From Bradyrhizobium sp. B097 (lineage in GTDB: Bacteria; Pseudomonadota; Alphaproteobacteria; Rhizobiales; Xanthobacteraceae): a stretch of 64,000 nucleotides of DNA. Under the pieces are notes generated by a model that searched no databases, was not told where the DNA came from, and saw only the letters and a program-made list of their open reading frames with translations. The stretch is from positions 9,048,501 to 9,112,500 of the forward strand of contig NZ_CP152412.1 in assembly GCF_038957035.1 (NCBI RefSeq), read 5' to 3'. This document shows, one piece after another, positions 55,876 to 56,132 of this stretch; positions within the stretch are counted from its first letter, which is position 1; every line of letters starts with the position of its first letter. A program made the translations under genes and the position numbers.

Positions 55876-55998
55876 GTCCCTGTGATGCGAGGTCTGTTGG
55901 CGCAGCCTCGTGCAACTGTTCAGGTTGATAGATGGAACGGGCGGGAGACCGAGCCGGCTCACGGCGTCAAGCGCCAAGGACCCAACGGCTTCCCGCCC
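55876..55998 (-). ncRNA. Candidate IS110 bridge RNA (target- and donor-binding loops)
   Basis: Read on the minus strand, the non-coding end first forms a target-binding-like stem-loop: stem GGGCGGGA/TCCCGCCC (55998-55991 with 55946-55939), inner stem AGCCG/CGGCT, and a small GGCG/CGCC hairpin inside an internal loop. A donor-binding-like hairpin CGAGG/CCTCG (55910-55906 with 55892-55888) follows. Guide-like matches: TGGGTCC (55984-55978) equals the target flank at 56035-56029; GCCGG equals the left flank at 54916-54920; AACAGTTG (55920-55913) equals the element end at 54928-54921; CACAGGGAC (55884-55876) equals the other end at 56024-56032. Exact RNA ends are unknown. Confidence 0.7.
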
Positions 55999-56027
55999 AC
56001 CCCATCATGACAGACTTCCAAGACACA

Positions 56028-56132
56028 GGGACCCATACGCCGCAGCAGGCGTTGTAGGCGGGACTCGTCGTTTCAGCAGCGCGTAACAATGACGGGCTGT
56101 GGTTATGGGTCCCGGCCTTCGCCGGGACGACG
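56028..56132. repeat. Right fragment of palindromic repeat family G, cut by IS110
   Basis: GGGACCCATACGCCGC ... TATGGGTCCCGGCC-TTCGCCGGGACGAC continues the repeat whose first 20 bases are at 54901-54920. Confidence 0.87.

Follow-up and report, generated by a model that had tools for sequence, protein, structure and literature searches.

A CC-core lineage of IS110-group insertion sequences with predicted bridge RNAs in Bradyrhizobium

Does the non-coding end of an IS110-group element in Bradyrhizobium sp. B097 encode an RNA that chooses the insertion site, and can the target be read from that end? The element lies in a 64,000-nucleotide stretch of DNA (G000:C1:9048501-9112500, the window) within the host chromosome, a single contig of 9.25 Mb. 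Core to core it occupies 54919-56029 on the minus strand, which also carries every feature given below unless stated otherwise; these limits follow from ends common to four genome copies and from orthologous empty sites (L209 and L210). The recombinase gene (54927-55868) encodes a DEDD/RuvC-Tnp protein of 313 amino acids from a GTG start, and its stop codon overlaps the left donor site. The protein matches PF01548 (DEDD_Tnp_IS110) and PF02371 (Transposase_20) with 61.6 and 68.9 bits against cut-offs of 29 and 21.3, its residues 4-307 match the IS621 recombinase (8wt6, E 1.4e-37), and it also matches that of ISCro4 (9t56, E 5.4e-35). Four copies with 99-100% protein identity occupy different locations in the genome, all with identical ends that read ...TGGGTC-CC-TGTGTC... 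on the left and ...AACAGTTG-CC-GG... on the right. The core dinucleotide CC is found at 56028-56029 (left junction) and 54919-54920 (right junction), as placed by the copies, the empty sites and a core-free reading. It is flanked by the genomic left target TGGGTC (positions 2-7; 56030-56035) and right target GGCCT (54914-54918), both assigned from the clade A insertions described below. The left donor AACAGTTG is formed by the last 8 nt of the element (54921-54928), as given by the sequence, the reading frame and the ends, and the donor sequence of the element is AACAGTTGCCTGTGTC. The non-coding right end measures only about 6 nt, compared with a left end of 161 bp (55869-56029) upstream of the transposase that holds the predicted bridge RNA gene, as indicated by alignment of ends and by matches to a covariance model. 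The initial annotation had recognised this left end and given it 160 bp; the end itself holds, its extent needs correction, and 56030-56035 belongs to target DNA.

Judged from sequence, and with a probability of about 0.92, this is an IS110-group insertion sequence that moved recently and produces a predicted bridge RNA from its 161-bp left end; its core is CC, unlike the CT core of its sister clades. The first loop of the RNA would pair with both sides of the insertion site and the second with both ends of the element, which would land at TGGGTC-CC-GG. Four short matches, reported in the initial annotation, underlie this reading. The sequence bears out three of them in full, i.e. TGGGTCC in the RNA (55984-55978) with the flank plus the first core base (56035-56029), GCCGG (55958-55954) with plus-strand 54916-54920, and AACAGTTG (55920-55913) with the element end at 54928-54921. 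The fourth, CACAGGGAC (55884-55876) with plus-strand 56024-56032, is present as a match; its GAC tail had been taken for donor guide and, by analogy, is best read as an IS621-type handshake guide (GA) followed by a stem base rather than as more donor guide. The predicted guides are thus a left target guide UGGGUCC for positions 2-8 (55978-55984) and a right target guide GCCGG that would pair with the core CC and GGC (55954-55958), both assigned by match and covariation, a left donor guide AACAGUUGC (55912-55920) assigned by match and donor comparison, and a right donor guide CACAGG that would pair with the core CC and TGTG (55879-55884), assigned by match. The GG core that had been proposed on the plus strand is likewise borne out as CC on the minus strand, unlike the CT of IS621.

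The chance of each match was taken as that of finding the word anywhere in the 161-bp end, for flanking words and for shuffled ends, respectively. It is 0.013 and 0.015 for the left target guide, and 0.0016 and 0.0002 for the left donor guide. For the right donor guide with its 3' extension it is 0.0016 and 0.0014 (0.056 and 0.049 for the 6-mer alone), and the right target 5-mer GCCGG, at 0.23 and 0.35, is not significant by itself. The order of the guides, their placement in the loops and above all their covariation across relatives are what place the matches, on sequence grounds, far beyond chance. Target position 1 is unmatched by the left guide in 70 of the 71 clade A insertions, and right target positions 12-14 match the guide in fractions of 0.71, 0.60 and 0.59, leaving a short right target guide (GG after the core). 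Over these 71 insertions, the donor-loop GA (55877-55878) matches target position 7 in a fraction of 0.99 and position 6 in 0.96; by analogy with IS621, it would pair with these positions after strand exchange. For the clade A target loop, the first handshake base fits in 70/70 and the second in 0/70.

Folding and alignment both predict two stem-loops. The target-binding stem-loop spans 55939-55998, with a stem of 55998-55991 paired to 55946-55939, and the donor-binding stem-loop spans 55873-55924, with a stem of 55924-55921 paired to 55876-55873 and a hairpin at 55910-55888. The single-sequence fold is moderately better than that of shuffled sequences (z-scores of -1.96 for the whole, -2.25 for the target loop and -1.13 for the donor loop). 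Alignment A1, which takes in 25 of the 31 different left ends from clades A and I, has 99.2% of cells paired across both stem-loops and compensatory changes in 6 of 27 pairs; none of 500 shuffles of A1 reached the observed pairing or covariation score, and the count of further pair types was not raised against shuffles (472/500). It is on the compensatory changes in the aligned sequences, rather than on the single-sequence fold, that the predicted structure rests. A covariance model built from the CC lineage, R1, gives four matches in the host genome, each adjoining one of the four transposase copies, and finds no further copy of the RNA in that genome. R1 also finds the RNA beside the transposase in all seven clade B loci given to it (E 1.4e-10 to 1.2e-8), in 17 of 22 clade C loci (E up to 0.01) and in 4 of 10 distant loci, and it misses the IS621 RNA (L207) at E up to 10. 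Three clade B loci also gave R1 matches on the strand opposite the RNA, at E 0.003-0.007, so weak R1 matches prove little. Rfam 15, searched in gathering and E-value modes, gave no bridge-RNA match; its sole listing, MIR1432, was rejected with a score of 25.1 against a gathering score of 90.

Relatives of the element provide a wider view of the guides. At least 56 of 265 Bradyrhizobium genomes have a homologue at E up to 1e-40 and at least 16 have close relatives of 75-100% identity, from a search of the genus that scored the best candidates of each genome, up to eight. Clade A comprises 71 insertions, the close relatives within the genus. Clades B and C comprise 74 loci of about 40% identity in the genus (72 usable), a subset of the homologues at that identity. 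Clade I comprises 10 insertions of 54-58% identity from six genomes in three other genera of the family, and clade F comprises 18 insertions whose proteins share 47-64% identity with one from clade I; they come from seven genomes, spread over seven families of the order. Distinct insertions number 71 in A, 10 in I, 24 in B and 41 in C, which makes 146 of 155 loci after two loci at contig ends (L024, L124) and seven duplicate fetches were left out; the 18 of clade F were added later. One clade A copy, L106 (G011:C1:7453656-7455569), is truncated, with an internal TAG and no right end, and its left junction still reads TGGGTC-CC. Some clade C loci also lack a right end and were counted for left guides alone. 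At L232 (G666:C21:17650-18564 with flanks), a partial left end of its own kind lies directly before the copy, and the two meet within the left target guide. The element looks to have taken guide-coding DNA as its target, the DNA of the guide being the target word.

The initial annotation had suggested that the guides should covary with the flanks across relatives, and they do. Target guides were taken from the left end alone, insertions were grouped by guide type, and each type was scored on its own targets and on those of other types. Across the 146 insertions from genus and family, left guide positions 2-8 (18 types) fit their own targets at 6.04 of 7 positions and others at 3.33, and right guide positions 8-14 (17 types) fit at 6.11 and 2.99; neither value was reached in 20,000 permutations. 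Clade C alone gave 0/20,000 for both target guides, clades A and I alone gave weak covariation (837 and 683 of 20,000), and clade B alone, with three types each, gave no significant covariation (13362 and 3213 of 20000). For the CC lineage (A, I and F), with core positions excluded, seven left guide types fit their own targets at 5.87 of 6 positions against 3.47 (11/50,000) and eight right guide types at 3.98 of 5 against 2.63 (13/50,000). Single types illustrate this: guide TGGATTC faces target TGGATT-C in all four copies of G776, TGGGCCC faces TGGGCC-C in 8 of 10, and GTGCACC faces GTGCAC-C in 4 of 5, while right guides AGGCGGG, AGACCGG and TTTCCGG go with CC-CGCCT, CC-GGTCT and, in 1 of 5, CC-GGAAA. 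On the donor side, the last 7 nt of the donor end are present in the guide in 162 of 163 elements, for guides picked by a loose pattern with the same shape as the donor. Four donor words occur (ACAGTTG, ACAGTCG, ACGGTTG, ACTGTTG), and the exception is L233 (GCAGTTG against ACAGTTG).

Copies with the same ends in unrelated targets are rare. A perfect 7-nt left match is found in 90 of 99 lineage insertions. Another six differ at one position, through a G-T or U-G wobble in L070, L087, L089 and L235, and three have two to four mismatches (L178, L248, L095). The clearest misfit among the 71 clade A insertions is L095 (G250), which has the usual guide at a site that fits 2 of 6 left positions, with two of the four misfits being wobbles. 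Poorly fitting guide types of clade C are TTACGCCC (2/6), TAACGCCC (2.33/6), CAACGCCC (3.5/6) and the right guide AGCAGAG (0/5), probably due to the guide boundaries assigned, which are partly ambiguous in runs of C, or to a wrong right end. The left guide of L229 was set by eye. Guide covariation and the small number of misfit copies support the proposal that the end holds a bridge-like RNA from which the target specificity can apparently be read.

What sets the lineage apart is its core. Cores were recounted with anchors that leave the core bases free, because the earlier end-finding patterns contained core letters; in 34 left ends a TGTGTG run offered another candidate further in, and there the recorded end was kept. 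The left core reads CC in 71/71 clade A, 10/10 clade I and 18/18 clade F insertions, and readable right cores read CC in 70/70, 10/10 and 18/18. This CC lineage spans 29 genomes from at least eight families of one order. Clade B has CT at 24/24 left and 24/24 right junctions. Clade C has CT on the left in all 39 readable of 41, and on the right CT in 34, another pair in three and no reading in four of 41; the three other pairs are perhaps the first anchor found and not the true end. Distant loci outside the lineage read CT in 17/17 readable of 19, with a pattern limited to C+C or C+T. As a feature of the sequences, the CC core appears firm. A protein tree of 95 rows, for which the core of L233 was entered as CC by hand, places CC on one side of one branch (SH-aLRT 87) and implies one core change, and a smaller tree, built without L106, L092, L134 and the distant loci L197, L201 and L203-L206, gives SH-aLRT 100 for A and I together. 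Both right-hand guides of the CC lineage also carry G where the sister clades have A, matching the change in donor and target. The likely history is a single natural switch from CT to CC in an order-wide lineage, in which donor, targets and both right-hand guides changed along with the core, with target diversification following under CC. The core would then be a heritable and evolvable module.

The recombinases differ as well. Equivalents of the IS621 catalytic residues D11, E60 and D102 are kept in 47/47 CC-lineage proteins aligned with IS621, and those of D105 and S241 in 46/47. G63 is kept in all 47. At the adjacent residue 64, 39 of 40 CT proteins have G, as against none of the 47 CC proteins (V in 19, I in 11, H in 6, others in 11); residue 66 is D in 47/47 CC proteins against E in 39/40 CT proteins, and residue 82 is R in 47/47 CC proteins. 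Residue 64 may belong to the core switch; since the tree holds a single switch, residues that mark the lineage may be mere marks of descent. The base that faces the second core position (left target guide position 9, A1 column 31) is U in clade A rows except L102, and wobbles with CC; it is C in clade I rows and in L102, a true pair with the CC core. This difference may be a remnant of the guide's adjustment to the change of core.

For IS621, the T of the CT core has been called "almost invariant", and its recognition ascribed to the backbone of G63 (Hiraizumi 2024, PMC11208158). The CC lineage departs from this trait, which is common among IS621 relatives and is not a formal definition of the family. 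According to the accessible text of Durrant 2024, CT boundaries were given priority, guides with CT cores alone were kept for the guide-motif analysis, and the engineered cores CT, AT, GT and TT varied the first base alone, keeping T at position 9. Given this preference for CT in the choice of elements, the almost-invariant-T rule may partly reflect which elements were selected. The term "CC core" does not occur in the accessible text of Durrant 2024, and searches of the openly accessible journal literature found no paper with a CC core.

The insertion sites themselves bear on what the element recognises. The 71 clade A insertions have the target consensus TGGGTC-CC-GG, and, among 19 loci from relatives that contain the right flank, empty orthologous sites in two relatives read TATGGGTC-CC-GGC. 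Both flanks reach the joint at L209 (G074), where the site reads TATGGGTCCCGGC, and at L212 (G036), where it reads TATGGGCCCGGCC; at L210 (G256) the joint is reached from one side and reads TATGGGTCCCGGC, followed by a different palindrome arm. These reads fit the proposed target, with CC apparently present once when the site is empty and twice when it is occupied. The word TGGGTCCCGG occurs 174 times in the host genome, compared with 19 times for the word read backwards, and the four copies of the element sit in further sites of this type. Among 100 places listed for TGGGTCCCGG, 64 form 32 pairs in opposite direction that are 75-97 bp apart (BIME-like); the partner word in the window lies at 56106-56115 on the plus strand. 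No RAYT/Y1 transposase (PF01797), a possible spreader of the palindromes, was found in the host genome, and the two Bradyrhizobium REPs given in the accessible part of PMC5082802 lack the GGGTCCCGG word. Insertion sequences that target REPs are already known from what is available of Tobes and Pareja 2006 and Durrant 2024. Clade B loci, e.g. L107-L123, are inserted into another repeated word, CATC-CT-GAGG, which matches their guides. Different IS110 clades may each use their own share of the REP-like repeats in Bradyrhizobium genomes.

Such targets invite the explanation that the recombinase reads REP palindromes by protein contacts or hairpin shape, the guide-like words being leftovers of REPs or chance. 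For 78 of 98 lineage insertions the site recurs in inverted orientation no more than 120 nt away, with at most one mismatch in 8, against 333 of 1960 random places, so that most targets are REP-like palindromes, and the matches of single guides in the window are individually weak. This explanation is nevertheless very improbable. L067 (with one mismatch), L085, L242 and L246 (the last two at GTGCAC targets) keep the guide-matched word without an inverted partner, many types show left and right guides that change along with the target, and donor guides vary with donor ends. The case for a bridge RNA comes from sequence, and the left end could instead be a relic, its RNA not made, in copies spread by homologous recombination or by duplication of larger segments. 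The four genome copies argue against a relic, as their flanks are unrelated and, apart from the target word, differ; so do the empty sites in relatives and guides that are conserved or change in step with their targets, and a relic is considered more improbable still.

The CC core could be an artefact of alignment, with the true crossover elsewhere and a CT-like core as in IS621. The window target has three consecutive C, so the register of the core is not visible from one junction. A left target with T as its last base fixes the register, which is the case in L230, L236, L240, L244 and L095, with TGGATT-CC-TGTG in all four G776 copies and GAGGT-CC-TGTG in L095. The free reading gives CC at 99/99 left and 98/98 readable right junctions, and the donor differs from that of clade C (ACAGTTG-CT-TGTGTC) at one base, the core base. 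An artefact is accordingly about as improbable as a relic, and a guided element with a CC core remains the preferred reading.

How such an element might move can be outlined from IS621, for which available text describes circle formation, a promoter completed at the joint, and an RNA that bridges donor and target (Durrant 2024; Hiraizumi 2024). By this analogy, the Bradyrhizobium element would form a circle, its joint would complete a promoter, and the RNA would bridge donor and target. A candidate -10 box, CATGAT, lies at 56004-56009; it is assigned by match to the consensus, and its function would be that of a promoter element. TTG from the right end and CCT from the left end would give TTGCCT-N17-CATGAT in the circular form only, and the integrated copy in the window reads GTCCCT where the circle would give TTGCCT. 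The junction TTGCCT stands at a constant distance (17 nt) from a CATGAT-like box in 23/23 distinct left ends of clade A and 9/9 of clade I. Clade C has a counterpart, TTGCTT with CAGAAT, in 18 of 22 distinct left ends, and clade B does not fit the junction-promoter pattern. The donor-loop GA that follows the right donor guide would make an IS621-type handshake with positions 7 and 6 of the target. If the promoter is placed correctly, 5 nt separate the -10 box from the target stem, too few for a 5' stem-loop, which the CC lineage seems to lack. Deletion of the 5' stem-loop of IS621 is described, in the available text, as decreasing RNA binding and slightly reducing recombination (PMC11208158).

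Bridge RNAs (Durrant 2024) and REP targeting (Tobes 2006) were already known and are encountered here in a new host. The new element is a CC-core lineage, apparently without a 5' stem-loop, which matters because the core limits where bridge recombinases join DNA. A natural family with C at position 9 tests the structural explanation of the core rule. The lineage widens the sites that can be reached (TGGGTC-CC-GG, TGGATT-CC-GG, GTGCAC-CC-GG) and is possibly an orthogonal partner to IS621-type systems; if the reading is true, bridge recombination on a second, orthogonal core could be developed from its enzymes, which nature already provides. The genomes also yield some 20 types each of left and right guide, together with the targets they face, as a ready-made set for testing mismatch rules.

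Membership of the IS110 group is supported by both domains, the catalytic residues, a long left and a short right end, two predicted structured loops, and target guides followed by donor guides that covary with their partners. Like IS621, the element has this recombinase family with its catalytic residues, an RNA gene in the left end with a target loop followed by a donor loop, left guides that match the bottom-strand side and right guides that match the top-strand side including the core, a donor-loop handshake guide, REP targets and, as inferred here, a promoter across the circle joint. Unlike IS621, it has the core CC and not CT, no room for a 5' stem-loop, a contiguous right donor guide, a left target guide that is one nucleotide shorter, a non-coding right end of about 6 nt, and an RNA whose model misses that of IS621. 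ISCro4 (PDB 9t56), whose likeness is judged on the recombinase, has a homologous recombinase over nearly its full length. The IS1111 group with seekRNA (ISPa11, ISKpn4), as described in the available text of Siddiquee 2024, shares RNA-guided target choice and a DEDD transposase, and ISPa11 likewise resides in REPs; its RNA gene lies downstream of the transposase, whereas it lies upstream here, where the right end (about 6 nt) is too short for one. ISPpu9, ISPpu10 and ISPa11 resemble the element in having copies at the same place in an extragenic palindrome; unlike in that account, target choice here is readable as base pairing, and no Bradyrhizobium element is named in its available text (Tobes and Pareja 2006). 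Within the genus, clades B and C share the layout and have RNAs that R1 finds, but differ in their CT core, longer left ends and other targets (such as CATC-CT-GAGG and GCCC-CT-CTGA).
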